Origin: Thermanaerosceptrum fracticalcis
GTDB lineage: Bacteria > Bacillota > Peptococcia > DRI-13
DNA length: 64,000 nucleotides
Assembly (NCBI RefSeq): GCF_000746025.2
Contig: NZ_CP045798.1
Coordinates: 3,455,501-3,519,500, forward strand
Direction: 5' to 3'
This document shows positions 7,269 to 62,872 of this stretch, one piece after another. A model generated the notes under the pieces. It did no database searches and was not told the DNA's origin. It saw nothing but the letters and a program-made list of their open reading frames with translations. Made by a program: the position numbers and the translations under genes. Position 1 is the stretch's first letter; each line of letters starts with the position of its first letter.

Positions 7269-7284
7269 AGGAGTTATTTCATAG

Positions 7285-7533: not shown

Positions 7534-7558
7534 ATGTATTTTGAGAGGAGTGGGTTAA

Positions 7559-8245: not shown

Positions 8246-8304
8246 AGGGAGACTGAATCTTCTCTGGCTGCCTAATTTAGTAAAATAGCGCAAATCACAA
8301 AAAA

Positions 8305-8360
8305 GGTATGCTTTATCGTTCATTGGTGAAACGTAAAGCATACCCTTTGGTTTTATATTT
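8305..8360 (+). terminator. Rho-independent terminator after hrb
   Basis: The stem GGTATGCTTTA-T-CGTT / AACGTAAAGCATACC (8305-8344, one bulge) is followed by a T-rich stretch. It separates hrb from the convergent efflux gene. Confidence 0.75.
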
Positions 8361-8379
8361 TCTCAGGAAAAGTATAATC

Positions 8380-8420
8380 TAATTAATCGGAAGTCGGAAA
8401 GCGGATGTCGGAAATCGAAG
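8380..8420 (+). repeat. Dispersed ~40-bp repeat, copy 1
   Basis: A GGA/TCGGAA-rich stretch beginning TAATTAATCGGAAGTC. It matches the reverse complement of 39712-39750 at most positions. It sits in the intergenic space between two convergent genes. Confidence 0.5.
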
Positions 8421-8435
8421 CGGCATAGCCGCATT

Positions 8436-9617: not shown

Positions 9618-9776
9618 AAGATTCACCTCTTAAGAAGGGATTGGTTCCTGTAACATCATACAACAAAAGGTAAGAAAAGGCCAATAATACAAAATACGGG
9701 TTAAAAATTGCAGGAAAAACAGGTTTTATCCAGAACTATATTTTACGGATAAGTAACGGATGAAAGGGGATACTTT

Positions 9777-42580: not shown

Positions 42581-42611
42581 AAAAAATGAGCCCTGGAGGG
42601 CTCATTTTTTT
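42581..42611. terminator. Bidirectional terminator
   Basis: AAAAAATGAGCCC / GGGCTCATTTTTT around a 4-nt loop. It serves the plus-strand small genes and abuts the stop of the minus-strand decarboxylase operon. Confidence 0.92.
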
Positions 42612-43788
42612 AGTGTGTACCAAAGAGTGACAGCAGAACACCGGCAGCAACGGCAGAACCGATAACACCGGCCACGTTGGGACCCATGGCATGCATCAGG
42701 AGGAAGTTCCTGGGGTTATCTTTCTGGCCCACTACCTGGGATACCCGGGCCGCCATAGGCACGGCCGATACACCGGCAGAACCGATGAGGGGGTTAACCT
42801 TACCCCCGGAGAGAACATACATCAGGTTGCCAAGGAGCACGCCACCGGCCGTACCCATTGCAAATGCTGCTAAACCCAGGAGAATAATCGAGATAGTTTG
42901 AAAGTTAAGGAAGTTTTCGGCACTGGCTGTGGCACCAACGGTTGTACCTAAGAAGATGGTGACGATGTTGATGAGGGCGTTTTGCGCTGTATCATTCAAA
43001 CGTCCCACCACACCTGATTCTCTAAAGAGGTTACCCAGCATGAGCATACCAATGAGCGGAGCCGCATCGGGTAATAACAGGGTTACAATAACCGTTACCA
43101 CAATGGGGAAAATGATTTTTTCCGTCTGGGAAACGGGACGAAGCTGTTCCATCACTGTCATCCGGGCCTTCTTGGTGGTTAATGCCCGCATAATAGGCGG
43201 CTGGATAATGGGTACCAGAGCCATGTAGGAATATGCAGCCACAGCAATGGCGCCTAAGAGGTGGGGCGCTAGCTTCGAGGTTAAAAAGATAGCGGTAGGA
43301 CCGTCAGCACCGCCGATAATACCGATAGAAGCAGCTTCCTGGGGATTAAACCCTAAGAAGAGGGCCCCGATAAAGGTGGTGAAGATACCTAACTGGGCAG
43401 CAGCACCTAAAAGCAGGGTCTTAGGGTTGGCAATGAGGGGACCGAAGTCGGTCATGGCTCCTATTCCCAGGAAGATCAGGGGTGGATAGATTCCCATTTT
43501 TACCCCTTGATAGAGGTACCATAAAAGGCCGCCGGGCACGATCTTTTCTTTACCGGTAATGGGATCAATGGCAGTTCCCTGGGGTGCCATAATGCCGGTA
43601 TCAGGCAGGTTCGCTAAAAGCATACCAAAGGCAATTGGTAATAAAAGAAGCGGTTCAAAGCCTTTGACGATGGCCAGGTACAGCAGAGTAAAGGAAATGA
43701 AGAGCATAACAATTTGCTGCCAGGTTATGGTGACAAAGCCGGTACTCATGGCCAAATCGTAAAGGGCCTGGGTCAGATTAAGTTCCAT
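42610..43788 (-). CDS. mmdB: Na+-translocating decarboxylase, beta subunit (membrane pump)
   Basis: Membrane subunit of biotin-dependent Na+-pumping decarboxylases (oxaloacetate, methylmalonyl-CoA or glutaconyl-CoA type). It decarboxylates carboxybiotin and exports Na+. The 392 residues form about 11 membrane helices and include the conserved [17 protein letters not shown] (Asp essential for Na+ transport) and [14 protein letters not shown]. The minus-strand frame opens at TTG 43800; ATG 43788 is better spaced from GAGAGGGG. Last gene of the operon mmdA-D-C-B. Confidence 0.94.
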
Positions 43789-43828
43789 TGGTGAGTTCAA
43801 CCCCTCTCGTATTTTTAAACACTCACGC

Positions 43829-44218
43829 TTAGCCGATCACTACAAGTACGTCCCCTGGGTTAACAGCCGCACCTTCGGATACTCTGATTTCTTTAACGCT
43901 ACCAGTTGCGCCGGAGAAGATTTCGTTTTCCATTTTCATGGCTTCAAGGGTTAAAACGAGATCACCCTCTTTCACGGCTTGGCCTACCTTCACTTTAATG
44001 GACATAATTTTACCGGGCATGGGAGCAGTAATGACTTCAGCGCCGGCAGCTACAGGAGCAGGGGCAGCCTTGGGAGCCGGGGCAGGTGCAGCTTGAGGTG
44101 CAGGAACAGATGCTGCTGCAGGAGCGGCAGGCCTTTGCGCAGGGGCTGCACTACCGCCAATTTCTTCTACTTCCACTTCATAGGTCTTACCATTCACTGT
44201 GATATTAAATTTTTTCAT
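43829..44218 (-). CDS. mmdC: Biotin carrier subunit of the decarboxylase
   Basis: Carries the carboxyl group between the carboxyltransferase and the membrane pump. The 129 residues comprise a short N-terminal fold ([19 protein letters not shown]), an Ala/Pro-rich flexible linker (about 32-65) and a C-terminal biotinyl domain with EAMKMENE; the biotinylated lysine is 34 residues from the C terminus, as usual. AAAGGAGA before ATG 44218 fixes the start; the frame extends to 44248. Confidence 0.94.
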
Positions 44219-44248
44219 TTTTTGTCTCTCCTTTCCCACATCAACCAA

Positions 44249-44584
44249 TTAAAATTGTCTTAAGTTCATTGTTTCCTGACGACCAGCCAGGCTCCAGGAG
44301 GGAGCATGGCCGCCAGGCACACGGGTTATGGTCTTTATGCTCATCCGTCCCTGGGTTAAGAAAGCCACAGTGGCAGCGATAACGGCTATGACGTCACTGT
44401 CGTCTTCCTTTTTCACAGTCGCTGCCGGGTCTGCTCCTTTTGTTACAGACTCTGCTTCAGACTTTTTTTTTACCGTACTTCCTGTTACCGAAGCCATAAA
44501 GTTGATAACAAAGATAAGAAAAGTAAGGGCTATAAAGACAATACCCATACCGATAAGGGTTACCTGTAAACCGAATACTAACAT
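44249..44584 (-). CDS. mmdD: Na+-pump decarboxylase, small membrane subunit (OadG/MmdD family)
   Basis: A 111-residue subunit that holds the decarboxylase complex together. One N-terminal membrane helix (about 5-30) is followed by a charged linker and a conserved C-terminal tail (SWSLAGRQE) that is typical of the larger delta-type subunits and contacts the carboxyltransferase. GGGGGAGG precedes the ATG on the minus strand. Confidence 0.87.
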   Translation of the reverse strand: MLVFGLQVTLIGMGIVFIALTFLIFVINFMASVTGSTVKKKSEAESVTKGADPAATVKKEDDSDVIAVIAATVAFLTQGRMSIKTITRVPGGHAPSWSLAGRQETMNLRQF

Positions 44585-44613
44585 TTCCTCCCCCCCTTTA
44601 CATGATGAGATTT

Positions 44614-46164
44614 TTAGAGTGGAATATTGCCGTGTTTCTTAGCGGGACGGGTTTCGCGCTTAGTAGAAAGCATCTCTAAGGCATTGGCCAGGCGGGGTCT
44701 GGTTTCTTTAGGTTCAATCACCATATCCACATAACCCCTTTCGGCAGCTACATAGGGAGTGGCGAAACGTTCGCGGTAATCGGCTATTCTTTCTGCCCGT
44801 TCTTTCGCAGGATCGGCAGCTGTTTCTATATCCTTGCGGAAGATGATGTTGGCGGCACCTTCGGCACCCATGACCGCAATTTCCGCTGTAGGCCAGGCCA
44901 TAACCTGGTCAGCCCCCAGGTGGCGTGAGCACATGCCAATGTAAGCACCACCATAGGCTTTACGGGTAATGACGGTTACTTTGGGTACAGTGGCTTCAGA
45001 ATAAGCGTAGAGCAGCTTGGCGCCGTGACGGATAATACCGCCGTACTCCTGGTTGGTTCCCGGTAAGTATCCCGGTACATCCACAAAAGTTACTATAGGG
45101 ATGTTAAAGGCATCGCAGAAACGGATAAAACGCGCAGCTTTATCGGAGGCGTTGATGTCCAGGCAGCCGGCCATAACCTTAGGTTGATTGGCGATAATGC
45201 CAATGACCTGGCCATTAATGCGGGCGAAGCCTGTCAGCATGTTGGGGGCATACAAAGGTTGGGTCTGGAAGAATTGGCCGTTATCCACAATCTTTTGGAT
45301 GAGTTCCACCATGTCATAAGCAGCGTTGGGGTTATCGGGAATGATTTCGTTGAGGGATTCATCCATGCGGCCAGGATCATCGCCCGATTCCAGATAGGGG
45401 GGATTCTCCAGGTTGTTGGATGGCAGGTAGCTTAGCAGGGTACGGATTTGCCTAAAACAGTCTTCTTCATTCTCGGCGGCAAAGTGGGCAACGCCGCTGG
45501 TACGGTTGTGGGTCATAGCCCCGCCTAACTGTTCGTCGGATACTTCTTCACCGGTTACGGCCTTAATTACCTGGGGCCCCGTGATGAACATGCGGGCGGT
45601 ATTTTTCACCATAAAAACGAAGTCTGTTAGAGCAGGAGAATATACGGCGCCACCGGCACAGGGTCCCATAATCACGGAAATTTGGGGAATAACCCCTGAG
45701 GCCAGGGTATTGCGGTAGAAAATCTGACCGTAACCGGAAAGGGCATCTACCGCTTCCTGGATACGGGCCCCTCCGGAGTCGTTAAGCCCTATACAGGGTG
45801 CACCCATTTTTACCGCCAGGTCCATTACTTTACAGATCTTGGCGGCATGCATTTCCCCGAGAGAACCGCCCAGTACTGTAAAGTCTTGGGCAAAGACATA
45901 AACCAGACGGCCATCAATAGTGCCATATCCCGTTACTACGCCTTCACCGGGGGCTTCTTTGCCGGCCATGTCAAAGTTTACACAACGATGGGCAACAAAC
46001 TTGTCCAGTTCAGTAAAGGTTCCCGGATCCAGGAGTTTCTCGATGCGCTCACGGGCAGTGAGTTTACCGCTCTGGTGCTGCTTATCGATGGCTTTTTGAC
46101 CGCCGCCTGATTCAATCTTTTTACTACGGGCCAAAAGATCATCAATTTTAGCTTTGGTACTCAT
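44614..46164 (-). CDS. mmdA: Carboxyltransferase (alpha) subunit of acyl-CoA decarboxylase
   Basis: Transfers the carboxyl group from an acyl-CoA to biotin. The 516 residues match the methylmalonyl-CoA decarboxylase alpha / propionyl-CoA carboxylase beta family: two crotonase-like halves with [49 protein letters not shown] and [13 protein letters not shown]. The length fits MmdA (about 510) better than GcdA of glutaconyl-CoA decarboxylase (about 587), but substrate specificity cannot be proved from sequence. It is the first gene of the operon and has its own sigma-54 promoter. Confidence 0.92.
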
Positions 46165-46710: not shown

Positions 46711-47856
46711 ATGGATTTCAGGTTTACTGAGGAACAGGAAAACATTCGAAAAATGGTGAGGGACTTTGTAGAGAAGGAGGTTGCCCCCGGAGCCGCTGAA
46801 CGGGATGAAGGGGAAAGTTTCGCCCCCACATATGAACTGTTGAAAAAAATGGGAAAACTGGGACTTATGGGACTTCCTTATCCCAAAGAGTATGGGGGAG
46901 CCGGTGCCGACCAGATTACTTACGCCCTGGTAGGTTTTGAAATCAACCGGGTAGATGCTTCCCTGGGATGCGCGTATTCCGTGCATATTTCCTTGTCTGG
47001 CTGGCCTATTTTTTATTACGGTACCGAGGAGCAAAGACAGAAATACTCAGTTCCTATGTTCAAAGGAGAAAAATTAGGAGCTTTTGCATTGACTGAACCT
47101 AATGCGGGCAGTGATTCCGGTGCCAGCCAGTGTACTGCCGTTTTAGATGGGGATCATTACGTCTTGAACGGGACAAAATGTTTCTGCACCAACGCCGGTT
47201 TTGCAGATGTCTATGTGGTCTTCGCTATGACTGATAAGTCCAAAGGCGTTAAGGGCATTAGTGCTTTCATTGTGGAAAAAGATACACCTGGCTTTAATTT
47301 TGCCAAGCAGGAAAGGAAAATGGGTATTCGTTCCACTGTACAGCGGGAAATCGTTATGGAGAATGTAAGAGTACCAAGGGAAAACCTTCTGGGCAAAGAA
47401 GGCGAAGGCTTTAAGATTGCCATGACTACCCTGGATGGCGGTCGTATCGGAATTGCTGCCCAGGGAGCGGGTATCGCCATGGGGGCCTATGAGTATGCCC
47501 TTAAGTATGCCAAGGAACGTCACCAGTTTGGTAAACCTATTGCCCAGCAGCAGGCTATTGCTTTTAAATTAGCGGATATGTTTACCAAGATCGATGCAGC
47601 TAAGCTCCTTACCCTTTATGCGGCACATAAAAAAGATCTCGGGCTGCCTTTTTCGGCAGAAGCTGCCAGTGCCAAGAAGTTTGCCACCAATACGGCTATG
47701 GAAGTTACCACTGAAGCTGTACAGATCCTGGGCGGCCATGGTTTCTTAAGAGATCACCCAGTAGAAAGAATGATGCGTGATGCCAAGATTACGCAAATTT
47801 ACGAAGGCACCAACGAAATTCAAAATGTGGTAATTTCAGGGATTATTTTACGGTAG
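46711..47856 (+). CDS. Acyl-CoA dehydrogenase
   Basis: FAD enzyme that introduces the alpha-beta double bond of an acyl-CoA, passing electrons to EtfAB (encoded downstream). The 381 residues have the usual order: helical N domain, beta domain with ALTEPNAGSDSG (about 126-137) and helical C domain ending in QIYEGTNEIQ, where Glu365 is the catalytic base of the butyryl/short-chain type. R-Q-F FAD contacts (ERHQFGKPI) and GGHGFLRD are present. The substrate could be butyryl-CoA, glutaryl-CoA or a branched acyl-CoA. AAAGGAGG precedes the ATG. First gene of a long sigma-54 operon. Confidence 0.94.
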   Translation: MDFRFTEEQENIRKMVRDFVEKEVAPGAAERDEGESFAPTYELLKKMGKLGLMGLPYPKEYGGAGADQITYALVGFEINRVDASLGCAYSVHISLSGWPIFYYGTEEQRQKYSVPMFKGEKLGAFALTEPNAGSDSGASQCTAVLDGDHYVLNGTKCFCTNAGFADVYVVFAMTDKSKGVKGISAFIVEKDTPGFNFAKQERKMGIRSTVQREIVMENVRVPRENLLGKEGEGFKIAMTTLDGGRIGIAAQGAGIAMGAYEYALKYAKERHQFGKPIAQQQAIAFKLADMFTKIDAAKLLTLYAAHKKDLGLPFSAEAASAKKFATNTAMEVTTEAVQILGGHGFLRDHPVERMMRDAKITQIYEGTNEIQNVVISGIILR

Positions 47857-47914: not shown

Positions 47915-47949
47915 TGTAGGCAGAGTTTTTTTACTAAAGGGGGGTGTTT

Positions 47950-48597
47950 ATGGCTAAGGTTATATCTATTGGAGAAGCTGTGGATATGATTAAAGACGGG
48001 ATGACCATTATGGTTGCCGGGTTCTGGGGGGTGGGAACACCGGAAAAACTTATCGATGCTCTGGTGGCAAAGGGGACAAAGAATCTTACAAGCATCAGTA
48101 TTTCAACGGCATTGCCCACGAAAGGTGTTGGTAAGTTAGTGGCTAACCGCCAGTTAAAAAAAGTCATTGTATCCTATATCGGGAGAAACCCGGCCACCTC
48201 GGAGCAGTATGAGTCCGGTGACCTGGAGGTTGAATTTGTTCCTCAGGGTACACTGGCAGAACGAATCCGGGCCGGCGGGTTTGGTTTGGGCGGTATCTTG
48301 ACTCCCACCGGGGTAGGTACTGAGATAGAACAGGGAAAACAGCGCATTACTGTAGATGGCCGCGATTATCTTCTGGAAAAACCCTTACGGGCTGATGTGG
48401 CTTTAATTAAAGCCCATAAAGCAGATAAAGCGGGGAACCTGGTCTACCGGAAAGCGGCACGCAACACTAATCCTTTAATGGCCGCAGCAGCAGATATTAC
48501 TATTGTCCAGGCTGATGAAATTTTAGAAATCGGGGAGATTGACCCTGATGAAGTTATGACGCCCGGTATTTTCGTGGACTATCTGGTCCAGGGCTGA
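47950..48597 (+). CDS. CoA-transferase subunit A (AtoD/ScoA type)
   Basis: Alpha subunit of a family I 3-oxoacid CoA-transferase, 215 residues. GFWGVGTPEKLIDAL (about 22-36) and GFGLGGILTPTGVGTE (about 99-114) are the glycine-rich family motifs. With subunit B it moves CoA between acids, allowing activation without ATP. ATG 47950 is chosen over the in-frame GTG 47944; AAAGGGGGG lies upstream. Subunit B follows 12 bp later. Confidence 0.93.
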   Translation: MAKVISIGEAVDMIKDGMTIMVAGFWGVGTPEKLIDALVAKGTKNLTSISISTALPTKGVGKLVANRQLKKVIVSYIGRNPATSEQYESGDLEVEFVPQGTLAERIRAGGFGLGGILTPTGVGTEIEQGKQRITVDGRDYLLEKPLRADVALIKAHKADKAGNLVYRKAARNTNPLMAAAADITIVQADEILEIGEIDPDEVMTPGIFVDYLVQG

Positions 48598-48609: not shown

Positions 48610-49269
48610 ATGGACACAAAGGATGTTTTTATTGCTAAACGTGTAGCCCAGGAATTCAAGGACGGGGATTTTGTCAACCTGGGAATTGGTATACCTACCT
48701 TAGTAGGGAATTACATTCCTAAAGGAGTACGCGTATTCTTCCATTCGGAAAATGGTTTTACACACATTGGCCCCATGCCTAACTCTGAGGAGGATATTGA
48801 TAGAGAACTGATCAATGCCAGTGACCAGTTTGTCACAATTCTTCCCGGTGGAGCTTTTTTCGACAGTGCTGTATCTTTTGGTATCATTCGCGGCGGTCAC
48901 CTGGCGGCAACAGTTCTGGGGGGATTGCAGGTTGACCAGGAGGGTAATTTGGCCAACTGGCGGATGCCCGGCAAGAAGACGGTAGGTATGGGAGGCGGCA
49001 TGGATTTAGCCGTTGGGGCTAAAAGAGTAATTATTGCTATGGAACATACCAACAAGGGTGAGCCCAAAATCGTCAAGAAATGTAATGTTCCCCTGACTGG
49101 GCTGAAATGTGTCGACCTCATTGTGACAGAAAAGGCGGTTATGGCTGTAACCAGCCAAGGTCTTGTCCTGAAAGAAATTGCGCCTGGTGTAACCGTTGAG
49201 CAGGTGCGTGCAGCCACGGAAGCCGATTTTACCGTTGATCCTGATTTAAAAATTATCAGCGTGGAATAA
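48610..49269 (+). CDS. CoA-transferase subunit B (AtoA/ScoB type)
   Basis: Catalytic beta subunit, 219 residues. The glutamate that forms the covalent CoA thioester is in HSENG (Glu47), and GMGGGMDLAVGAKRVI (about 127-142) is the second conserved element. The exact donor and acceptor (acetoacetate, butyrate, glutarate or others) cannot be read from the sequence. The next gene begins two bases after the stop in the open frame. Confidence 0.94.
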   Translation: MDTKDVFIAKRVAQEFKDGDFVNLGIGIPTLVGNYIPKGVRVFFHSENGFTHIGPMPNSEEDIDRELINASDQFVTILPGGAFFDSAVSFGIIRGGHLAATVLGGLQVDQEGNLANWRMPGKKTVGMGGGMDLAVGAKRVIIAMEHTNKGEPKIVKKCNVPLTGLKCVDLIVTEKAVMAVTSQGLVLKEIAPGVTVEQVRAATEADFTVDPDLKIISVE

Positions 49270-49291
49270 AATGGGCACAAGGAGTGAAAAT

Positions 49292-50251
49292 GTGAACAAC
49301 ATTGCTTTTGTTTTCCCCGGACAGGGAACCCATTACGTGGGGATGGGTCTTGAATTGGCCAAGAGATATAAAGAGGCCGCCGATGTATATGAACAGGCAA
49401 ACGAGATAATGGGTTTTGACCTTGCTAAAATGTGTTTTGAGGGGCCCGAGGAAGAACTTGTTAAAACTGAAAATTCCCAGCCTACCATTCATACAACCAG
49501 TATTGCGATTTTGAAAGTTGTAGAAAAATACGGCATTAAAGCTGGGGTTACTGCCGGCTTTAGTTTAGGCCAGTATTCTGCCCTTGTTTATGCCGGTGCT
49601 CTAAAGTTTGAGGATACGGTAAAACTGGTAAAGACCAGGGGAATGCTGATGCAGAATGCCGTTCCCCTGGGTATGGGCAAAATGTGCTGGATCACAGGAC
49701 TCAGCAGGGAACAGGTTTTGCAAATAGTTGAAGATTCGAAACACCTGGGACATATCGAACCTTCCAATTTCAATTGTCCCGGTCAGATTATTGTAGCCGG
49801 ATATAATGCCCCAGTTGAGTATGCCCAGAAACTGGCCCTGGAGAGAGGTGCTAAAGGTGCGGATTTTCTTAGAGTGAGCGGTCCTTTCCACACCAGGCTC
49901 CTTTACGAAGCTGGGTTTAAGTTAAGGGAAGAACTAGACAAGATTGAAGTTAAGAACCCCCAAATCCAGTACGTTGACAATGTTACGGGCAAATATTTTG
50001 ATCCGGAAAAAGATGACCTAAAGGAACTTTTAAAAGAACATGTCTATAAAGCTGTTATGTGGGAAGACTCCATGGATTCTATGCTGGAGGCAGGTGTAGA
50101 TACATTTATTGAACTTGGTTCGAAAAATGTCCTTACCAATTTAAACATAAGATGTGCCCAAAAACACAACAAGGAAGTACGTTGTATAAATGTACGGGAT
50201 ATTGAAACATTGGAGGCCTTGCTTCGGAATATGGAAAAAGAACTTAAATAA
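49292..50251 (+). CDS. FabD-like (malonyl) acyltransferase
   Basis: Acyl-CoA:carrier-protein transacylase family, 319 residues. The nucleophile elbow reads GFSLGQ (Ser91) instead of the usual GHSLGE; Arg116 in KTRGML, which in FabD binds the free carboxylate of malonyl, and His200 in GPFHT are present at nearly the E. coli positions (92, 117, 201). Retained Arg implies a dicarboxylic acyl group. It is out of place: no fatty-acid synthesis or acyl carrier gene is near, and it lies inside a degradative operon. AAGGAG spaced 7 nt fixes GTG 49292, not the upstream ATG. Confidence 0.87.
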   Translation: MNNIAFVFPGQGTHYVGMGLELAKRYKEAADVYEQANEIMGFDLAKMCFEGPEEELVKTENSQPTIHTTSIAILKVVEKYGIKAGVTAGFSLGQYSALVYAGALKFEDTVKLVKTRGMLMQNAVPLGMGKMCWITGLSREQVLQIVEDSKHLGHIEPSNFNCPGQIIVAGYNAPVEYAQKLALERGAKGADFLRVSGPFHTRLLYEAGFKLREELDKIEVKNPQIQYVDNVTGKYFDPEKDDLKELLKEHVYKAVMWEDSMDSMLEAGVDTFIELGSKNVLTNLNIRCAQKHNKEVRCINVRDIETLEALLRNMEKELK

Positions 50252-50287
50252 GAACTAATAATTTATTAAAGGAGGAGAGTGTTAATT

Positions 50288-51154
50288 ATGAACATCAAAA
50301 AAGTCTTAATCATTGGAGCCGGTCAAATGGGAAGCGGTATTGCCCAGGTCATGGCCATGTCCGGCCGGGAAGTGGCCATGTTTGATGTCGACCAGAAGTT
50401 TGTGGACAAGGGTCTTGCTGGTATTGAGAAGAACCTGGCCAAAGACGTGGAAAAAGGCAAGTTAACTGCAGAGCAGAAGGATGCCATCATGAAGCGCATC
50501 AGCGGCGGCGTCGAGTGGACTGCCAAGGACTGTGACGTTGACATTGCTATTGAAGCCGTAGTCGAGAACCTGGAAGTGAAAAAGGCTATTTTCAAGAAAC
50601 TGGACGAATTCTGTCCTCCCAACACCATTCTTGCTACCAACACCTCTACCCTTTCTGTAACAGCTATTGGCTCCGTAACCAAGCGTCCGGAAAAGGTAAT
50701 TGGCATGCACTTCTTTAGTCCTGTGCCCATCATGAGGCTGATTGAGGTGGTTCAAGGACTCGCCACCAGTGAAGAGACAATCAAGGCTGTTGTGGAACTC
50801 GGTGCAAGCCTACCCAATGGCAAAACTCCTATCGTAGTCAAAGACTTCCCCGGTTTCGTCGGAAACAGGATTATGATCCCCATGATTAACGAAGCCATTT
50901 ACACTATATATGAGGGAGTTGCCGATCCTGCAACTATTGACAGTGTTGCTATGCTGGGATTCAATCATCCTATCGGCCCCATCCGCCTGTGTGACGCTAT
51001 CGGTCTTGACACCATCCTTTATGTAATGGAAGTTCTCTACGAGGATTTGGGCGATCCCAAATACCGTCCCTGTCCCTTGCTGAAAAAATATGTGGAAGCT
51101 GGTTGGCTGGGTAAGAAGACAGGAAGAGGTTTCTACAACGATTACAAAAAATAA
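50288..51154 (+). CDS. hbd: 3-hydroxybutyryl-CoA dehydrogenase
   Basis: NAD(P)-dependent oxidation of 3-hydroxyacyl-CoA to the 3-oxoacyl-CoA. The 288 residues contain the Rossmann motif [13 protein letters not shown] (about 8-20), the catalytic region [10 protein letters not shown] (about 114-123) with [16 protein letters not shown] (His in the catalytic dyad) and [11 protein letters not shown]. It is the single-domain Hbd size of clostridial butyrate metabolism. ATG 50288 follows AAAGGAGG; GTG 50279 is too close to it. Confidence 0.95.
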
Positions 51155-51169
51155 AAGGAGGTTAAATCC

Positions 51170-51952
51170 ATGGGCGAATATAAAAACTTACTCTTTGAAA
51201 ATCAGGACGGCATAGGGATTTTAACGATGAATCGTCCGAAAGCCCTTAACGCGTTAAACACTGAGACATTAAGTGAGCTTTCTCAATTACTTGACGAAAT
51301 CGCCAAGGACGATTCCATTAAGGTTGTAGTAATTACCGGTGCAGAAAAAGCATTTGTAGCGGGGGCAGATATCACCGAGATGCTGCACATGACGAGTGCT
51401 GAAGGTCGTGCCTTTGGTCTCTTAGGCCAGGCCACATTTAACAAAATAGAAAATATGCCGAAGCCTGTAATTGCTGCAATTAACGGTTTTGCCTTAGGCG
51501 GCGGCTGCGAACTGGCTATGGCCTGTGACATACGTATTGCCTCGGAAAAGGCTAAATTTGGCCAGCCCGAAGTTGGTTTGGGTATTGTGCCCGGTTTTGC
51601 TGGGACTCAGCGCCTGCCCAGACTAGTAGGCAAGGGACGGGCCAAAGAAATCCTCTTTACCGGAGAAATGTTTGACGCCCAAGAGGCATACCGTATAGGA
51701 TTGGTCAATAAAGTTGTGCCCCCCGAAGAACTAATGCAGGCAGCTAAAACTATGGCCCAGAAAATTATGAAGAATGCACCCTATGCTGTAGCTTTGTGTA
51801 AAGCAGCCGTTAACCTCGGTCTGGATGTGAGTCTTGATGCAGGTCAGGATTATGAGGCTACTCTCTTTGGTGTTACCTGTTCTACGGAAGATAAAAAAGA
51901 GGGTATGTCCGCCTTTGTGGAAAAACGGAAAGCAACCTTCGTAGGTAAATAA
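51170..51952 (+). CDS. crt: Enoyl-CoA hydratase (crotonase)
   Basis: Hydrates a 2-enoyl-CoA to the 3-hydroxyacyl-CoA, completing the step between dehydrogenase and Hbd. The 260 residues carry the oxyanion-hole motifs AGADITEM (about 64-71) and NGFALGGGCELAMACDI (about 105-121), and the two catalytic glutamates in GGGCELA and QPEVGLGIVPGFAGTQRL. AAAGGAGG precedes the ATG. No thiolase is encoded in the operon. Confidence 0.95.
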   Translation: MGEYKNLLFENQDGIGILTMNRPKALNALNTETLSELSQLLDEIAKDDSIKVVVITGAEKAFVAGADITEMLHMTSAEGRAFGLLGQATFNKIENMPKPVIAAINGFALGGGCELAMACDIRIASEKAKFGQPEVGLGIVPGFAGTQRLPRLVGKGRAKEILFTGEMFDAQEAYRIGLVNKVVPPEELMQAAKTMAQKIMKNAPYAVALCKAAVNLGLDVSLDAGQDYEATLFGVTCSTEDKKEGMSAFVEKRKATFVGK

Positions 51953-52010: not shown

Positions 52011-53195
52011 ATGCGGTACTACACCCCCAAGTCAGAACTTGATGCCCGTATTACACGTTTTCAAATAGGGTTACGTGAGCAGGATGTAGAGTGTGCCTTG
52101 ATTACACAAAATGTAGATATGTTTTATTTTTCAGGGACTATCCAGCATGCCCATCTGTTTATTCCCGCAGAAGGTAAACCGGTGCTATTCGTTACCAAGA
52201 GTACAGAAAGGGCACGGAGTGAGTCATTCCTGGATTGTATTGTAGATTTAGCGCAGCCAAAGGATTTAAGAGGTATACTTAGTGAATTCGGGTACGGTTC
52301 TCTGAAAACCATAGGTCTTGAGGGGGATGTATTAACCTTTAATTTGTACCGGCGGTATGAAAAACTATTTTCTCCTGCTAAAGCAGTTGATATCAGCCCC
52401 CTGATACGTTCCGTACGGATGATTAAATCACCTTATGAGCTGGAACTGATCCGTGAAGCAGGAAAAATGGGAAGCGAGATAATGGCCTTTGTAAGTGAAA
52501 ACTTAAGGGCCGGGATGGCTGAGTTCCAGATAGTGGGTATGATTGAGAAGCTTTCCCGGGAAAAAGGCCATCCCGGGTTTATACGCACCAGGGGATTTAA
52601 TCAGGACCTGGTTCCCGTCCTGTTGTTATCTGGGCCGGGGGGAGGTGTGCCGAGCTATGCCAACGGGCCCCTGGGCGGATCCGGGGCCACAACTGCCTTT
52701 CCCTATGGACCTTGTAACCGGATAATCGGACGTGATGAATCTGTTATCGTTGATTATGAAGCATGGGTAGGCGGATACATGACGGATATGACACGTACCT
52801 TTTGTGTAGGACGGCTTCCCGGATATATGGAGAGAGCTTACCATGTGGCAGTGGAGATACAAGAATTGTTAAAAGATCTGGGAAAACCAGGGATAAAATG
52901 TGAGGAACTTTTTCAGAAAGCACGGGAAAAAGTACGTAAATATGGCTTGATTGACCATTTTATGGGCATGCATAGACCTGTATCCTTTATCGGGCATGGG
53001 GTTGGTTTGGAGGTTGACGAATTGCCTGTCATAGCACCGGGGATTGCAACACAGCTGGTTGAGGGAATGGTGATAGCCATTGAACCCAAATTTGTCTTTC
53101 CAAAAGGTGCTGTAGGGATTGAAAATACATTTGTAGTGGGCAAACAGGGACTGGAGCACTTAACAAGTTTTGATGAAGGAATCCAGTATTGTTAG
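52011..53195 (+). CDS. M24-family metallopeptidase-like protein (Xaa-Pro peptidase type)
   Basis: A 394-residue pita-bread-fold protein: an N-terminal creatinase-like domain (about 10-150) and a C-terminal metal domain. All five ligand residues appear present: Asp in IVDYEAW, Asp in YMTDMTRTF, His in IGHGVGLE, Glu in AIEPKF and Glu in GIENTF. Annotated relatives are X-Pro dipeptidases, but creatinases and other hydrolases share the fold, and a peptidase is unexpected in a beta-oxidation operon. GGAGG fixes the ATG. Confidence 0.85.
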
Positions 53196-53208
53196 GGAGG
53201 CCTATTTG

Positions 53209-54057
53209 ATGAGAGAGGAAGATAAGGATATTCTACAAAGATATTTGGAATTTGTACCCCTCTTGAATGAAATGATGCCCATTGATATAGGTGTTGGGCT
53301 CTTCGACAGGGAAAAGTGCCTGCTTTATGTACCGGGGAAAAAACTGGACCTGGGGGCTAAACCCGGTGACCCAGTTAAAGCCGGAAGTGGTGTTCACCGT
53401 GCTATGACTGAAAAACGCAGGATTTTTGTCCGTATTGATAAAGCCGTATATGGCCGGCCCTATCTGGTAGTGGCACTACCCATCTATAACGGTTTTAAAG
53501 AGGTAATTGGAGGTATTGCCATTACTGAGCCTTTGGATAAGTTTGATGAGTGCAGGGAAATATCGGATAAGTTGTATGAAAATGCGAGTGTATTGGCTAG
53601 TACAACCCAGGAGATTTCTGCTCAGACCGAAGAAATAGCATCTGTTTGCCAGACCCTGTCCCACTTGGCTGAACAACTGAAAATGCGGATTCAGGAGACT
53701 GATCAAGTGCTTGGATTTATAAAAACTATCGCCAAGCAAACCAATTTATTAGACCTTAATGCGGCTATTGAGGCGGCGCGGGTTGGTGATCAGGGACGGG
53801 GCTTTGGAGTAGTAGCGGAAGAAATAAGAAAACTGGCCTCCAACAGCAGTGAATCCATAAAAAAAATAGAATCAGTGGTTAAGTCAATACAATACGATAG
53901 TGACCACGTATACGAACAAATAAGTCATGTGGATGACGTTATTTCCCAGATTGCTTCGGCTATTACCAGTGTAGCAGGTGCGGTTGAGCAGCTTGCCGCC
54001 ATGTCCGAGGGCCTTAACAAACTGGCGGAATCACTGGAAAGTGACGAAAACAACTAG
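53209..54057 (+). CDS. Soluble chemoreceptor-like protein (MCP signalling domain)
   Basis: A 282-residue protein without membrane helices. Residues 1-120 form a compact sensor-like domain ([20 protein letters not shown]... [12 protein letters not shown]) that I cannot assign with certainty. Residues 135-280 are a coiled-coil methyl-accepting signalling domain with the tip sequence [19 protein letters not shown] and [13 protein letters not shown]. It may link metabolism of the acid to motility, or act as a cytoplasmic sensor. GGGAGG sets ATG 53209; the frame opens at 53170, overlapping the previous gene. Confidence 0.85.
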
Positions 54058-54093: not shown

Positions 54094-54849
54094 ATGAAAA
54101 TCCTTGTATTGCTTAAAGAAACTTTTGCTACCGATTTTAAAGTTGTTTTAACACCCGCTGGGAAAATAGATGATACACAGGTTAGCTATATTGTTAACCC
54201 TTATGATGAATATGCTTTGGAAGAGGCAGTAAAAATTAAAGAAGATATGGGAGGGGAGGTTATCCTTTATACCGTGGGCAGGAAGGATGGGGCCGCAACT
54301 TTAAAAAATGCCCTGGCCATGGGGGCTGACAGGGCTATGTTAATCACAGCGGGTGCGAAAGACAGCCAGACGGTTACAGAACTGCTGGCGGAAACAATCA
54401 AACAGAAAGATCCTGATTTCGACCTAATCCTGGCGGGCTGGATTGCCATAGATGACAATAATGCCCAAGTGCCTGGCCGGCTAAGCACTTTGTTAGGGCT
54501 TCCCCTGGTAAATGTGGTAACAAAATTAAATATAAACATAAAGCAGAGAAAAATCCTTTGTGAACGTGAGGCAGATGGCGTACAGGAAATTGTGGAGGTC
54601 GAATTGCCAGCCGTTATAGCTGTGCAAAAAGGTATTAACGTGCCTCGTTATCCCACGGTGCAAAATATCTTGCAGGCTAGAAAGAAAAAGATTCAGATAA
54701 TTTTCCCGGAAGTGGAAAATAAACACGATTCAGTTATTACCTACCAGATTCCGCGGAAAAGAAAAGCTGCCTTGTTATTTGACAATTCTGATCCCCAGCA
54801 AGCTGTGTTCCAGTTAGTACAGAAATTACAGGAAGACAAGGTACTATAA
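54094..54849 (+). CDS. etfB: Electron transfer flavoprotein, beta subunit
   Basis: Forms with EtfA the flavoprotein that accepts electrons from the acyl-CoA dehydrogenase at the start of the operon. The 251 residues match the EtfB/FixA family: MKILVLLKET, VNPYDEYALEEAVKI (about 34-48), MGADRAMLI and the nucleotide loop AGWIAIDDNNAQVPGRLSTLLG region (about 114-135). That loop differs from both the canonical AIDDDxNQT and the bifurcating AIDGDTAQVG forms, so whether this Etf bifurcates is unclear. Confidence 0.93.
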   Translation: MKILVLLKETFATDFKVVLTPAGKIDDTQVSYIVNPYDEYALEEAVKIKEDMGGEVILYTVGRKDGAATLKNALAMGADRAMLITAGAKDSQTVTELLAETIKQKDPDFDLILAGWIAIDDNNAQVPGRLSTLLGLPLVNVVTKLNINIKQRKILCEREADGVQEIVEVELPAVIAVQKGINVPRYPTVQNILQARKKKIQIIFPEVENKHDSVITYQIPRKRKAALLFDNSDPQQAVFQLVQKLQEDKVL

Positions 54850-54877: not shown

Positions 54878-55867
54878 ATGATAAAAAATATCCTGGTTAT
54901 CGCGGAACAGGCAAATGGTCAGCTAAAAAGTGTAGTGGAAGAAATGTTAAGTTTTTCCAGCAACCAGGCCAGAGCAAAAGGATTTTCTGTAAAAGCTGTA
55001 TTGTATGGGGAAAAAATTTCGGAAGGTATGTATCAACAGATAGGTCACTGGGGTGTGCATGACATAATTACAGTGAACAATGAGAAACTCAAAGTACACA
55101 ATCCCCAGCTTGCCTGCCACATATTGGCTAATATTATCAGGGAAGAGGCACCCCAGCTTGTTATGTTCGGAAATACAGCTATAGGAAAAGACCTGGCCCC
55201 CCGGCTGGCCCAGGATTTTACTGCACCTATGGTTAGCGATGTTATTAGCATTAATTTTACTTCTAATGGTATAAGTTTTGTCAGGCCTATTTATGGCGGT
55301 AAGGTTTTCGAAAATATTGAGTTTAATAACAAACTCACCTTCGTAACCGTTCGACCTAACACTCTGGGGAAACACTCTGTGAGTTATCAAAAGCCCCGTA
55401 TAACAGACCTAAATTTTGATTTACCCGACAATCTGCTTTATGTGGTTAAAAAGATTGTAGAGAAAAGCAAAGTGGAAAAAAACTTAAACGAAGCTGAAAT
55501 TATTGTTTCCGGGGGAAGAGGTTTAAAGAAAGTTGATGATTTCCTAATCTTGGAAGAGTTAGCCCAGGTTTTAGATGGAGCAGTTGGTGCCTCAAGAGGG
55601 GCAGTTGATGCCGGGCTGCGCCACCATTCCGCTCAGGTTGGGCAAACAGGGAAAACGGTATCCCCTAAACTTTATATTGCTTGTGGGATTTCGGGAGCTA
55701 TTCAACACTTAGCAGGGATGTCCACATCCCAGGTCATTGTGGCTATCAATAAAGACCCGGATGCTCCCATATTTAAGATAGCCGATTATGGTATTGTGGG
55801 CGATCTTTTTGAAATAGTACCTCTGCTGACAAGAGAACTGAAGAAAGTACTAAAAAAAGACGTGTAA
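54878..55867 (+). CDS. etfA: Electron transfer flavoprotein, alpha subunit
   Basis: FAD-binding partner of EtfB, 329 residues. The N-terminal half (about 1-195) has the adenine-nucleotide alpha hydrolase fold; the C-terminal half has the FAD signature, from VGASRGAVDAG (about 240) through QVGQTGKTVSPKLYIACGIS to GAIQHLAGM. No N-terminal ferredoxin extension is present. It starts 28 bp after etfB and precedes the activator gene by 15 bp, within the same operon. Confidence 0.95.
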   Translation: MIKNILVIAEQANGQLKSVVEEMLSFSSNQARAKGFSVKAVLYGEKISEGMYQQIGHWGVHDIITVNNEKLKVHNPQLACHILANIIREEAPQLVMFGNTAIGKDLAPRLAQDFTAPMVSDVISINFTSNGISFVRPIYGGKVFENIEFNNKLTFVTVRPNTLGKHSVSYQKPRITDLNFDLPDNLLYVVKKIVEKSKVEKNLNEAEIIVSGGRGLKKVDDFLILEELAQVLDGAVGASRGAVDAGLRHHSAQVGQTGKTVSPKLYIACGISGAIQHLAGMSTSQVIVAINKDPDAPIFKIADYGIVGDLFEIVPLLTRELKKVLKKDV

Positions 55868-55882
55868 AAAGAGTGTGACACT

Positions 55883-57340
55883 ATGTATGAGGACAGGAGA
55901 ACCTCCGACTCTGACCTGAATAAAATAATGGCTCAAGAGCTTAACTCCATATTTGAAGCTTCTTATGACGGTTTGTATATATGTGACAAGGATGGGCGTG
56001 TGGTCAGGGTTAATAGTGCCTGGGAAAAAATATCCGGTTTTCCCAGGCAGGCAGTAATAGGAAAAAACGTGAAAGAACTGGTGGAGGAGGGTTATTATGA
56101 TAATTCTGCCGCATTATTAACCATAGAAAGCAAAAAAACATCCACTACCATGTTAAAGATCACTTCGGGGCCTAAAAAAGGACAGGTTATCATGGCTACT
56201 GGAACCCCTATCCTGGACGAAAAAGGTGAGCTTGTACAGGTTGTTGTTAATGTAAGGGATATTACGGATTTAGAAAACCTTAAGGCCCAGCTCAATGAAA
56301 CCATGCAACTAACCAGGCGTTATGCCGACGAATTGGAAGAAATACGCCTTCAGCAACAAAAAATTGATGATATTGTGGTGAAGAGCCCTTCAATGCAGAG
56401 GATTGCTGAGCTGGTTGTCCGTGTTTCCCGGGTTGATTCTACAGTACTTATTACCGGGGAATCAGGGGTGGGTAAAGAGATTATTGCCAGGAAAATCCAC
56501 CTTTTAAGTAACAGGAAAAACAACTCTCTCATTAAAATCAACTGTGGTGCCATACCCGAGAATCTCTTGGAGTCGGAATTATTTGGCTATGAGGCAGGCG
56601 CGTTTAGCGGTGCAAGGCGGGAAGGAAAACCTGGCATGATTGAACTTGCTTCCGGTGGTACCCTCTTTTTAGATGAGATAGGGGACTTACCCCTAAACTT
56701 GCAGGTGAAGTTATTAAGGGTATTGCAGGAAAGAGAAATCACCCGGGTGGGAGGAATAAAACCCATTCAGGTGGATACTCGCATAATTGCAGCTACAAAT
56801 AAGGATTTGACAGCCATGCTGAAAAAGGGCACCTTCCGTCAAGATTTATTTTACCGGCTTAATGTAGTAAATATTGAGATCCCTCCTTTAAGGGAACGTC
56901 GTGAAGACCTGGTAGCATTAATACCAGTCATCCTGCACAAAATTAACGAAAAGTACAACCTGAGGAAAAAACTATCTCCACAGGTAATGGAGCGGTTTTT
57001 AAAATACCATTGGCCGGGGAATATCAGAGAAATTGAAAATACCCTGGAGAGACTTGTAGTCCTTACAAATGAAGATGTTATCGGCATAGACCATCTGCCT
57101 GATTATTTAAAGGAGGAAAAATCTCATCATAATAAAATAATCACCTTTGATTCTATTGTGCCTTTAAAGACAGCCGTTGAAGAAGTGGAATACCAAATGC
57201 TCGCTATGGCTCTCGAAAAATACGGTTCGACCCGGGCCATGGCCAAGGCATTGGGTGTAAACCAGTCCACCATCGTCAGGAAGATGAGACAATATAGGAT
57301 GGATAAAAATGATGCTTTGGAACATCTTAATGGTGCTTGA
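55883..57340 (+). CDS. Sigma-54-dependent activator with PAS sensor
   Basis: Enhancer-binding protein of 485 residues: an N-terminal PAS domain (about 10-125, ASYDGLYICDKDGRVV), a short coiled coil, AAA+ core with Walker A GESGVGKE (about 192-199), sigma-54 loop GAFSGA (about 239-244; T to S variant) and LFLDEIGDLP, then a Fis-type helix-turn-helix (MAKALGVNQSTIVRKM, about 452-467). As last gene of the beta-oxidation operon it is the best candidate for the protein that binds TGATGY-N6-GCATCA at 46373, 46485 and 57398, which would make it autoregulated. Confidence 0.93.
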   Translation: MYEDRRTSDSDLNKIMAQELNSIFEASYDGLYICDKDGRVVRVNSAWEKISGFPRQAVIGKNVKELVEEGYYDNSAALLTIESKKTSTTMLKITSGPKKGQVIMATGTPILDEKGELVQVVVNVRDITDLENLKAQLNETMQLTRRYADELEEIRLQQQKIDDIVVKSPSMQRIAELVVRVSRVDSTVLITGESGVGKEIIARKIHLLSNRKNNSLIKINCGAIPENLLESELFGYEAGAFSGARREGKPGMIELASGGTLFLDEIGDLPLNLQVKLLRVLQEREITRVGGIKPIQVDTRIIAATNKDLTAMLKKGTFRQDLFYRLNVVNIEIPPLRERREDLVALIPVILHKINEKYNLRKKLSPQVMERFLKYHWPGNIREIENTLERLVVLTNEDVIGIDHLPDYLKEEKSHHNKIITFDSIVPLKTAVEEVEYQMLAMALEKYGSTRAMAKALGVNQSTIVRKMRQYRMDKNDALEHLNGA

Positions 57341-57597: not shown

Positions 57598-58902
57598 ATG
57601 AGTAAATGGCAAGAAATGTATAAGCAAAAATTAACTTCGGCGGAGGAGATTGTAAAAAAAATCAAGTCGGGGGATGTTTGCTGCTGTCCTTCTGCTCTGG
57701 GTGAGCCTGCAGCCATTGTAGAGACCCTTGCCGAAAGAGCTCTGCGGGAAGACTTAAGGGGTATTACCCATCATATGCTCCTTGCTTGCCGGAAATGGAA
57801 GTACCTATCCCCTGAACTCGCAGGAAGGATTACTCATGTTGCCTGGTTTACCAGTGGAGCGGCCAGACCCGCAGTCCAGGAAGGAAGAGCCGACTATATG
57901 CCCAATTTTTACCATGAGGTACCCCGGTATTGGCGGGAATACAGGGAACCTGATGTATTTTATGCCATGGTTTCTCCTATGGATAAACACGGGTATTTCA
58001 GTTTTGGCGTAGCGGCCAGCGAACCTAGAGCCCAGATGTCCCGGGCCAAGAAGATTTTCCTGGAAGTGAACCAGTATATGCCCCGGATTCATGGTTCGGC
58101 CTTTGTTCATATCTCAGAAGTTGATGCCCTTTGTGAAGCCCATATTCCCCTCCCTGAACTGCCCAGCGAACCTTTGTCGGAGATAGATATTATTATGGGG
58201 AACAGCATCGCCGAGATGATTCCAGACGGAGCCACCATCCAGTTAGGCATCGGAGGGATCCCCAATGCTGTGGGAAAAGCTCTGATGTCTAAGAAAGATC
58301 TTGGTATTCACAGTGAAATGTTCACTGACAGCATGGTGGATTTGATTGAAGCCGGTGTTGTCACCAATAAAAAGAAAAATATTAATACAGGCAAATCCGT
58401 AGCCTCTTTCGCTTTTGGTTCCCGCAGAATGTATGATTATCTGGATGATAACCCGGGTGTAGAATTTCATCCTGTTGATTATGTCAACGAACCTACTATT
58501 ATTGGTTTGAACGACAATTTTATTTCCATAAATGCCTGTTTGGAAGTTGATTTGTTGGGACAGGTTTGCTCTGAATCCATAGGGCCTAAGAACTTTAGCG
58601 GAACTGGCGGGCAGGTGGATTTTGTACGGGGCGCCAACAGGTCAAAAGGTGGGAAAGCCTTTATTGCCATGTATTCCACGGCCAAAAACAATACCATCAG
58701 TAAAATTAAGCCTATGCTTACAGAGGGCGCTGTAGTGACAACTTCCAAAAATGATGTTGACTATATCGTAACGGAATATGGTATTGCAAAACTGAAAGGC
58801 AAAACAGCAAGCGAAAGGGCCAAGGCGCTGATTGCTATTGCGCATCCTAATTTCAGGGAAGAATTGACCTTTGCTGCCAGGAAAATGAATTTGGTTATCT
58901 AG
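57598..58902 (+). CDS. Acetyl-CoA hydrolase/4-hydroxybutyrate CoA-transferase family protein
   Basis: One-chain CoA-transferase of the Cat2/AbfT type, 434 residues. The catalytic glutamate is in HSEMFTDSM (about 240), IQLGIGGIPNAVGKAL (about 216) precedes it, and FSGTGGQVDFVRGA (about 335) is the CoA-binding loop. It would activate an imported carboxylic acid with acetyl-CoA or butyryl-CoA as donor. AAAGGAG precedes the ATG. It heads a second sigma-54 transcription unit with the permease, ferredoxin and AOR genes. Confidence 0.92.
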   Translation: MSKWQEMYKQKLTSAEEIVKKIKSGDVCCCPSALGEPAAIVETLAERALREDLRGITHHMLLACRKWKYLSPELAGRITHVAWFTSGAARPAVQEGRADYMPNFYHEVPRYWREYREPDVFYAMVSPMDKHGYFSFGVAASEPRAQMSRAKKIFLEVNQYMPRIHGSAFVHISEVDALCEAHIPLPELPSEPLSEIDIIMGNSIAEMIPDGATIQLGIGGIPNAVGKALMSKKDLGIHSEMFTDSMVDLIEAGVVTNKKKNINTGKSVASFAFGSRRMYDYLDDNPGVEFHPVDYVNEPTIIGLNDNFISINACLEVDLLGQVCSESIGPKNFSGTGGQVDFVRGANRSKGGKAFIAMYSTAKNNTISKIKPMLTEGAVVTTSKNDVDYIVTEYGIAKLKGKTASERAKALIAIAHPNFREELTFAARKMNLVI

Positions 58903-59148
58903 GATTTTACTTTTATGGTTTTGTGCAATCTGGGCTAATACGCAACGGTAATTCGTCGCGATTAACCAGGAGGTGATAAATAAAAGCTTATAAGAAGCAA
59001 ATGGGGACTCATTTTGGTTGTGGTTTTAAGAGAAAGAGACCACCGTAATTTTTACAACAAATAAGGTCTCTAGTAACAAAGAAAGGATATTTGGGATAGG
59101 TTAGGTCAGTGCAAAATTCGCAAGATGTCAAGAAGAGGAGGAAAAATT

Positions 59149-60522
59149 ATGGCAATTTACCGTGAACATGGCAAGGAACAACCTTATATACCAATGGGGC
59201 TGTTCAAGGTTCGGTTTCCCTTCATTCATTACAAATGGGAATGGCCGGAGGCTTTACAGGGACTTATTCTGGTAGCAGTTGCCCTGGGTTCTATCCCCGT
59301 TCATCAGGAAATCCTGGGGGTACCTTTTGAAGTGGCCCTGGTTATGGTGGCGTTAAACGGCTTACTTTACATCCTGCATCCCACCTTTGGCGACCCTGTA
59401 TTCCCAGGTTGGATCACGCCTGCTATTCCGTTAGTACTTGCCTGGTGTAAAGGTTATACCGCTGGCCCCGATAGGATACAGGCAATTATTGCCCTGCAAT
59501 TATCAATGGCTTTCGTATTTTTCTTTTTAGGTTTTACTGGATTAGCCAAAAAGATAGTCTCTTTTGTACCCGTTTCCATGCGGGCAGGGATTATCTTAGG
59601 CGCCGGACTGGCTGCTACCATTAGTGTTATTCAGCCCAAGGGCCGTATGACCGGTCAAGAGGTTACTATTCTTACCGGTGCTCTCATCTGTTTCCTGGTC
59701 TTGTTCTCCTGGCGGTTTGCCGTGGCTAAGGAAAAAAATGCTTTCCTGGCTCAGTTGTCCAAGTATGGCATGCTTCCCGGGATTATCGTGGCAGCTATTG
59801 TCGGTCCCATTATCGGAGAAATACCCATTCCGAAAATTCAAATGGGTATTATAGATCTTAGTTTGTTCGGTGAACTGGTTTCTAAATATACTATATTTGC
59901 TGTTGGTTTTCCGGGAATAAAATACTTTATCGATGCTATACCCTTAGTTATTGCTGCTTACATTATCGCTTTCGGAGACTTTGTGCTGGCTGAGGTTGTT
60001 ACCAAAGAAGCTGACGCTGTCCGCGATGACGAGATCATCGAGTTTAACCCCAACCGTTCCAACATCATTTCCGGTTTCCGTAACCTGGTTATGGGCCTTT
60101 TCGCTCCCTACGGACCTCTCTGCGGTCCCCTCTGGGCCGGCGGTACTATCGCTATAGCTGAACGTTATAAGCATGGACGCAAGGCTATGGACTCTATCTG
60201 GGGTGGTGCCGGTTCCTTTACCATTGCTATGTTTATTGCCGGATTCTTCCTGCCCATTATCAGTCTGGTTAAACCGGTTTTACCGGCGGCCCTCTCCTTA
60301 ACCCTTTTGGTACAGGGATTTGCCTGCTGTTATATTGCCATGGATATGGTTAAAACCAAGGAAGAGCGCGGTGTGGCAGGAATTATGGCCCTGTTTTTAG
60401 CTACTAAGACAGCAGCCTGGGGGCTGGCTGTAGGTATTATTCTTCACCTGGTTATTGGTGTTAACGATGGTAAACCGGCGGCAGCCCCTGCAAAACCGGC
60501 AGGGAATGCCCTGGCAGAATAA
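59149..60522 (+). CDS. Putative permease (NCS2/SulP-like membrane protein)
   Basis: A 457-residue integral membrane protein with about 11-12 helices and a Pro/Ala-rich tail. Overall pattern resembles the xanthine/uracil (NCS2) and SulP anion carriers, but the clear NCS2 signature is missing, so the family is uncertain. Conserved-looking loops are FGDPVFPGWITPAIPL (about 90) and APYGPLCGPLWAGGTIAIA (about 320). Its position between a CoA-transferase and an AOR makes it a candidate importer of the operon's acid. GAGGAGG fixes ATG 59149. The preceding 246 bp hold an AGGAGGTGA with no gene after it. Confidence 0.75.
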   Translation: MAIYREHGKEQPYIPMGLFKVRFPFIHYKWEWPEALQGLILVAVALGSIPVHQEILGVPFEVALVMVALNGLLYILHPTFGDPVFPGWITPAIPLVLAWCKGYTAGPDRIQAIIALQLSMAFVFFFLGFTGLAKKIVSFVPVSMRAGIILGAGLAATISVIQPKGRMTGQEVTILTGALICFLVLFSWRFAVAKEKNAFLAQLSKYGMLPGIIVAAIVGPIIGEIPIPKIQMGIIDLSLFGELVSKYTIFAVGFPGIKYFIDAIPLVIAAYIIAFGDFVLAEVVTKEADAVRDDEIIEFNPNRSNIISGFRNLVMGLFAPYGPLCGPLWAGGTIAIAERYKHGRKAMDSIWGGAGSFTIAMFIAGFFLPIISLVKPVLPAALSLTLLVQGFACCYIAMDMVKTKEERGVAGIMALFLATKTAAWGLAVGIILHLVIGVNDGKPAAAPAKPAGNALAE

Positions 60523-62795: not shown

Positions 62796-62872
62796 TCCAT
62801 TTTGTCGCAAGAGAAGGAATATTTAGATTGTTGTGGAATATTTCTATACAGCTTGCAACGGAGGTAAATGGG

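Follow-up and report, generated by a model that had tools for sequence, protein, structure and literature searches.

The window, that is, the whole stretch of 64,000 nt of Thermanaerosceptrum fracticalcis DNA analysed here, contains a FabD-type gene, called fabD2 below, in an operon of C4 acyl-CoA genes. In our preferred reading, which we put forward tentatively, its product is quite possibly a neofunctionalised Ser-His acyltransferase that acts on a malonyl-like acyl-CoA at the acetoacetyl-CoA node, and not the FabD of fatty acid synthesis. The initial annotation had suggested a new role for this gene, and such a role does appear likely, because fabD2 is a second FabD-type gene, is separate from the housekeeping FabD and carries changes shared by its whole clade.

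The fabD2 gene and its operon

The open frame of fabD2 (49271-50251, forward strand) encodes 326 aa, and the GTG at 49292, with the stop at 50251, gives a protein of 319 aa. The latter start, chosen in the initial annotation, is likely right because an AAGGAG (49279-49284) lies 7 bases upstream of the GTG and the homologues also begin at the matching position. Ser91, Arg116 and His200 of the 319-aa count, which that annotation reported together with the motif GFSLGQ, are all present and correspond to Ser98, Arg123 and His207 of the 326-aa count. The only Pfam domain in the protein was Acyl_transf_1 (PF00698; 97.6 bits, cut-off 32.7). The TIGR00128 model (fabD) scored 284.6 bits against a curated cut-off of 260.9, and among the relatives described below it scored 282.5 in G429, 295.7 in G900 and, under the cut-off, 231.8 in G536.

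The operon has the order acd-ctfA-ctfB-fabD2-hbd-crt on one strand, and the features of this part of the window are the following.

46711-47856, forward strand: acd, short-chain acyl-CoA dehydrogenase (profile matches)
47944-48597, forward strand: ctfA, acetate/3-oxoacid CoA-transferase subunit A (profile matches)
48610-49269, forward strand: ctfB, 3-oxoacid CoA-transferase subunit B (profile matches)
49292-50251, forward strand: fabD2, FabD-type acyltransferase paralogue (Pfam and TIGR model matches, clade in the tree)
50279-51154, forward strand: hbd, 3-hydroxybutyryl-CoA dehydrogenase (profile matches)
51170-51952, forward strand: crt, short-chain enoyl-CoA hydratase (profile matches)
52011-53195, forward strand: M24-family (creatinase/prolidase-like) protein (relatives in G001 and G900)
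53170-54057, forward strand: MCP signalling-domain protein (relatives in G001 and G031)
54094-54849, forward strand: etfB (profile matches)
54878-55867, forward strand: etfA (profile match)
55883-57340, forward strand: PAS-sigma54 activator, likely the regulator (relatives in G429, G031 and G900)
57598-58902, forward strand: butyryl-CoA:acetate CoA-transferase-like gene (below the cut-off of that model)
59125-60522, forward strand: permease, weakly like Xan_ur_permease (a 79% identical relative precedes acd-fabD2 in G900)

The tight, same-strand placement of a FabD-type gene between ctfB and hbd was thus as first described: the ctfB stop lies 22 bases before the GTG and hbd starts 27 bases after fabD2, the gaps between CtfA and CtfB and between Hbd and Crt being 12 and 15 bases. 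Equally, the operon encodes neither an ACP nor a condensing enzyme. A PF00550 profile search of the genome returned only the AcpP encoded with the fab genes and a protein like DltC, whose gene has dlt-like neighbours judging by their sequences; no second acyl carrier protein for FabD2 was found. Promoter and terminator scans gave site numbers no greater than in shuffles.

The products of acd, hbd, crt and ctfAB suggest a pathway through butyryl-, crotonyl-, 3-hydroxybutyryl- and acetoacetyl-CoA. The further proposal that the pathway may handle a dicarboxyl-CoA was not supported, since no enzyme of the operon clearly does so and its enzymes fit the C4 series. Divergent to the operon, at 42610-46164 on the reverse strand, is a gene set for a Na+-transporting decarboxylase of biotin type, with carboxyltransferase, OAD_beta and a protein like a biotin carrier; it does not adjoin the operon in L003 (the contigs of G001 and G031 end at that point).

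As for the downstream part, the M24-family and MCP-domain genes (52011-54057) are within the operon and overlap by 26 bases, and relatives of one gene or of the pair are present in G001, G031 and G900. An aldehyde:ferredoxin oxidoreductase gene and then a short CBS-PAS-like ORF occupy 60876-63460; this ORF is similar to the regulators of L003 and G031 over their front part only, and is perhaps a truncated regulator.

The canonical FabD of the same genome

We counted the fabD genes, as the initial annotation had advised. The genome of the window (G000; 3,805,411 bases, one contig) has two PF00698 genes, the other of which adjoins fabH-like, fabK-like, fabG and acpP genes in a fatty-acid operon, and so the possibility that fabD2 is the only fabD of the genome was discarded. 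Two PF00698 genes were present in each of the seven fabD2 genomes, the second FabD being canonical at Gln14, Leu67, Ser92, Glu95, Arg117, Arg190, His201 and Gln250 in 7/7.

Distribution and phylogeny

The searches overlapped, and seven genomes were found in all: G000, G001, G031, G429, G900, G428 and G536. Matches above the housekeeping range occurred in 3 of 46 genomes of the class of the window genome, in 4 of 398 sampled from its phylum (two of these, L113 and L114, being canonical), in 2 of 155 genomes from the same order as G428, in 2 of 380 from the class to which G429 belongs and in 1 of 395 sampled from the phylum of G428; fabD2 is rare. A scan of named genome contigs, in which 80 of 589 relatives were retained, gave L003, of the Negativicutes MAG SKW2 (G429), and L004, of the Syntrophobacterales MAG AUK149 (G428). 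The next-best matches, L005, L113 and L114, were not counted as members, being canonical FabDs with Gln14 and Glu95.

The main tree was unrooted and contained 55 hand-picked proteins (an earlier quick tree of 123 rows was made before G900 was found). In it, the seven FabD2 proteins formed one clade (UFBoot/SH-aLRT 100/100, stem of 0.61 changes per column), with G900 as the deepest member, beside Clostridia-type FabDs, the nearest being Thermohalobacter L005. FabD2 is of FabD ancestry, and is placed apart from the housekeeping FabD of its genome: the canonical FabDs of G000, G429 and G428 group with their own relatives. The clade has members in both Bacillota and Thermodesulfobacteriota, which implies horizontal transfer, and an origin as a paralogue of a Clostridia-type FabD that later spread fits best.

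Predicted structure and selection

The AlphaFold model of FabD2 had a mean pLDDT of 74.4 and a pTM of 0.76, with five sequences behind it and weak regions at the active-site loops. Its best Foldseek matches were FabD structures (3ptw, TM 0.89/0.92, 40% identity). Between the two sister species G000 and G001, dN/dS was 0.029 for FabD2, 0.028 for CtfB, 0.023 for CtfA and 0.129 for Hbd; between the FabD2 of G428 and G536 it was 0.099. FabD2 is under purifying selection, as are its neighbours.

A separate observation concerns acd (46711-47856), the protein of which is 100% identical to that of G001 (L120, 6781-7926), with a dS of 0.028, whereas the adjacent ctfB and fabD2 have a dS above 0.7 between the same genomes. 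This looks like a recent exchange of acd alone.

Kept and altered residues

The seven FabD2 proteins were compared with 112 canonical FabDs in the numbering of E. coli FabD. The 112, most of which were collected for their similarity to the window protein, do not represent FabDs at large, nor are they all different, as the identical pairs L034/L115 and L013/L086 were retained; the MdcH row, three PKS AT rows and L124 (a duplicate of the window genome's own FabD) were left out. The codons concerned, all on the forward strand and named by the 326-aa count, are listed here.

49331-49333: His21 (E. coli Gln14); His in 7/7, canonical Gln in 112/112
49490-49492: His74 (E. coli Leu67); His in 7/7, canonical His in 0/112
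49562-49564: Ser98, nucleophile (E. coli Ser92, Ser91 of the 319-aa count); 7/7 and 112/112
49571-49573: Gln101 (E. coli Glu95); Gln in 6/7, Glu in G900
49637-49639: Arg123, carboxylate-binding Arg (E. coli Arg117; residue comparison)
49889-49891: His207, catalytic base (E. coli His201; residue comparison)
50039-50041: His257 (E. coli Gln250); His in 7/7, canonical Gln in 111/112

Ser92, His201, Arg117, Gln11 and Gln63 are kept in 7/7. At position 67 the canonical proteins have Leu, Val, Phe or Met, and at position 250 the single canonical His is that of L078; the Nostoc PKS AT, among the rows left out, likewise has His at 250. Position 190 is basic (Arg or Lys) in 109/112 canonical FabDs and in 0/7 FabD2. 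The motif GFSLGQ occurs in 6 of 7, and since G900, the deepest member, has GFSLGE, it is not diagnostic of the clade; we dropped it as a hallmark in favour of the three clade-wide histidines.

Concerning what these positions do, the main chain of Gln250 contacts His201 in E. coli FabD, and residue 190 may take part in binding ACP or CoA. PMC10054515 gives the roles of Ser92, His201, Arg117, Gln11 and Leu93. For PksD, PMC11775670 describes Gln15, residues of helices alpha4 and alpha12 and the Arg117 counterpart as one hydrogen-bond network round the pocket; positions 14, 67 and 250 of FabD2 plausibly lie in those same elements.

Gene context and the place of the thiolase

Genes for hbd, crt, acd and a CoA-transferase were near fabD2 in 7/7 genomes, although the type of CoA-transferase and the layout vary. 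This context is more than chance, because seven genomes keep it and the dN/dS of FabD2 is 0.029. The order acd-ctfA-ctfB-fabD2-hbd-crt is shared by G000, G001, G429 and G031. G900 has acd-fabD2-hbd-crt followed by GctB-like and GctA-like genes, an M24 gene and a further CoA-transferase, so that acd and hbd, and not a CoA-transferase gene, are the direct neighbours of fabD2. In G428 and G536, GctB-like and GctA-like genes (PF01144, tested on G536) precede fabD2, and crt, hbd and a different acd are convergent to it, hence fabD2 is not co-transcribed with crt and hbd there. Adjacency of acd and a FabD gene was rejected as a sign of FabD2 by itself, because acd also precedes a canonical FabD, one belonging to a fab operon, in L065.

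Two further loci are recorded here. In G031 (L119, G031:C58, 4743-5141) a decayed second fabD2, a 132-aa ORF with pieces of the C-terminal half, lies between the intact fabD2 and hbd. The G900 cluster ends with an HpaB-fold protein (L145, 376-1839, reverse strand), which we take to be like 4-hydroxybutyryl-CoA dehydratase in sequence; the window genome has a protein of the same look (L157, 3677-5128) ahead of a thiolase-hbd-crt set.

No thiolase gene was found in the flanks of fabD2 (8.6 to 64 kb) in the seven genomes. The window genome has five full-length thiolases, all elsewhere and each beside other acyl-CoA genes, and two of the five directly precede hbd, the same place that FabD2 has here. 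(After a thiolase-hbd pair on L156 of G000 there are tandem 419-aa ORFs, 7251-8510 and 8858-10117, that share their first 45 residues.) FabD2 contains no thiolase domain (PF00108), and thus shares the place of thiolase but not its fold. In Syntrophomonas wolfei, the genes Swol_1932-36 of syntrophic butyrate oxidation similarly cluster CoA-transferase, acyl-CoA dehydrogenase, Hbd and Crt, but with the thiolase Swol_1934 between bcd and hbd, where the window operon has FabD2 (PMC3582634). It is mainly this thiolase-like position, an argument from position only, that places FabD2 at the acetoacetyl-CoA node. A literature search, with most subscription journals outside its coverage, found no FabD paralogue in such an operon.

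Comparison with known systems and alternative explanations

FabD2 resembles PksD, an acyl hydrolase of trans-AT polyketide synthases, in being a FabD-fold relative with an altered pocket, and it may be asked whether it too is a hydrolase, one that guards the C4 pathway by cleaving off CoA any side products of malonyl, methylmalonyl or ethylmalonyl type, or short acyl groups that have stalled. This is the explanation nearest to the editing role first imagined, and we rate it as rather unlikely. The decarboxylase cluster next door would suit it, except that this is not beside the operon in L003. In one malonyl-specific AT, hydrolysis rose about sevenfold when the His preceding the nucleophile was replaced (PMC4186864), and FabD2 has Phe or Tyr there, but Leu occupies this position in 55 of the 112 canonical FabDs. 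Moreover, acyl hydrolases such as PksD lose the malonyl-binding Arg according to PMC11775670, while FabD2 keeps it in 7/7; we therefore did not assign FabD2 to that group.

Unlikely, too, and a little more so, is an ordinary second malonyl-CoA:ACP transacylase that makes malonyl-ACP with the AcpP of the genome, its place in the operon merely adjusting fatty acid synthesis during growth on C4 acids. FabD2 is in fact like FabD (TIGR00128; 3ptw, 1mla) in predicted fold, in the Ser-His dyad, and in Arg117, Gln11 and Gln63, so that the malonyl-binding Gln-Arg pair is kept, and the TIGR00128 cut-off is exceeded in G000, G429 and G900, though not in G536. Unlike FabD, however, it has His at 14, 67 and 250, no basic residue 190 and no fab operon, with the strictly conserved Gln14 and Gln250 replaced in 7/7, and it forms a separate clade beside a canonical FabD already present in every genome.

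Improbable, in our judgement, is that FabD2 is a new kind of acetoacetyl-CoA enzyme that replaces thiolase in the operon. It would then be a FabD-fold acyltransferase whose acyl-enzyme, formed from acetoacetyl-CoA, leads to transfer, to hydrolysis or even to retro-Claisen cleavage (into acetyl-Ser and acetyl-CoA), the new histidines serving as acid/base, and what becomes of the C4 pool would be settled without a cysteine thiolase.

Still less probable is that FabD2 charges or recharges the cycle of the neighbouring CoA-transferase, in the way that malonate decarboxylase relies on MdcH to load malonyl for MdcA, a CoA-transferase-like protein. Both FabD2 and MdcH are FabD-fold acyltransferases in an operon with a CoA-transferase-like protein (MdcA, MdcC and MdcH are in one operon in Azospirillum), and a CoA-transferase gene of one of two different types is near fabD2 in 7/7. 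Against this, FabD2 scored 190.2 bits with TIGR03131 (cut-off 297.9), for which an identity as MdcH was dropped; its locus has no mdc genes, no MdcC-like carrier was found by the PF00550 search of the genome, and in G900 the adjoining genes are acd and hbd. A search for MdcH in 199 genomes gave no match, but was uninformative as the control genomes likewise gave none. A non-catalytic scaffold or regulator of the operon enzymes is very improbable: the unusual changes at conserved active-site positions and the constant operon context would agree with it, but all catalytic residues are kept in 7/7 and dN/dS is 0.029.

Proposed reaction

We return to the preferred reading, that of a Ser-His acyltransferase at the acetoacetyl-CoA node, for which we infer both the substrate and the acceptor. 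The reaction would most likely be of ping-pong type, in which Ser98, activated by His207, forms an acyl-enzyme from a short acyl-CoA. The donor could be malonyl-CoA or acetoacetyl-CoA; Arg123 and Gln70 would orient it, and it is the presence of these two residues that argues for a malonyl-like group. Acetoacetyl-CoA is the product of Hbd and a substrate of CtfAB-type enzymes, and acetoacetyl is near-isosteric with malonyl. As main substrate, malonyl-CoA is a possibility short of likely, and acetoacetyl-CoA is one to the same degree. The Gln63-Arg117 pair, described as the basis of malonyl specificity in PMC12895367 (see also PMC6954729), fits malonyl better than acetoacetyl. Given this pair, kept in 7/7, a dicarboxylyl donor is possible. 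The acyl-enzyme would then be resolved by an acceptor other than a canonically docked AcpP, i.e. CoA, another thiol or water, as suggested by the loss of basic residue 190 and by the remodelled pocket and entrance. Because FabD2 fills in this operon the place that thiolase has in some sister operons, it probably helps to set the fate of acetoacetyl-CoA or of a related thioester. Points against the preferred reading are the convergent layout of fabD2 and crt-hbd in G428 and G536, the score of the window protein above the TIGR00128 cut-off, and the five thiolases elsewhere in the genome, with which the pathway does not need FabD2 for cleavage.

Significance

The standard model names this gene fabD (ACP S-malonyltransferase) and would put it in fatty acid synthesis. 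What the clade shows is that anaerobic C4 acid metabolism has recruited a textbook fold, which in two phyla is encoded close to genes for Hbd, Crt and a CoA-transferase. Should FabD2 act on acetoacetyl-CoA or malonyl-CoA, it would give butyrate/crotonate metabolism a new point of control or bypass.
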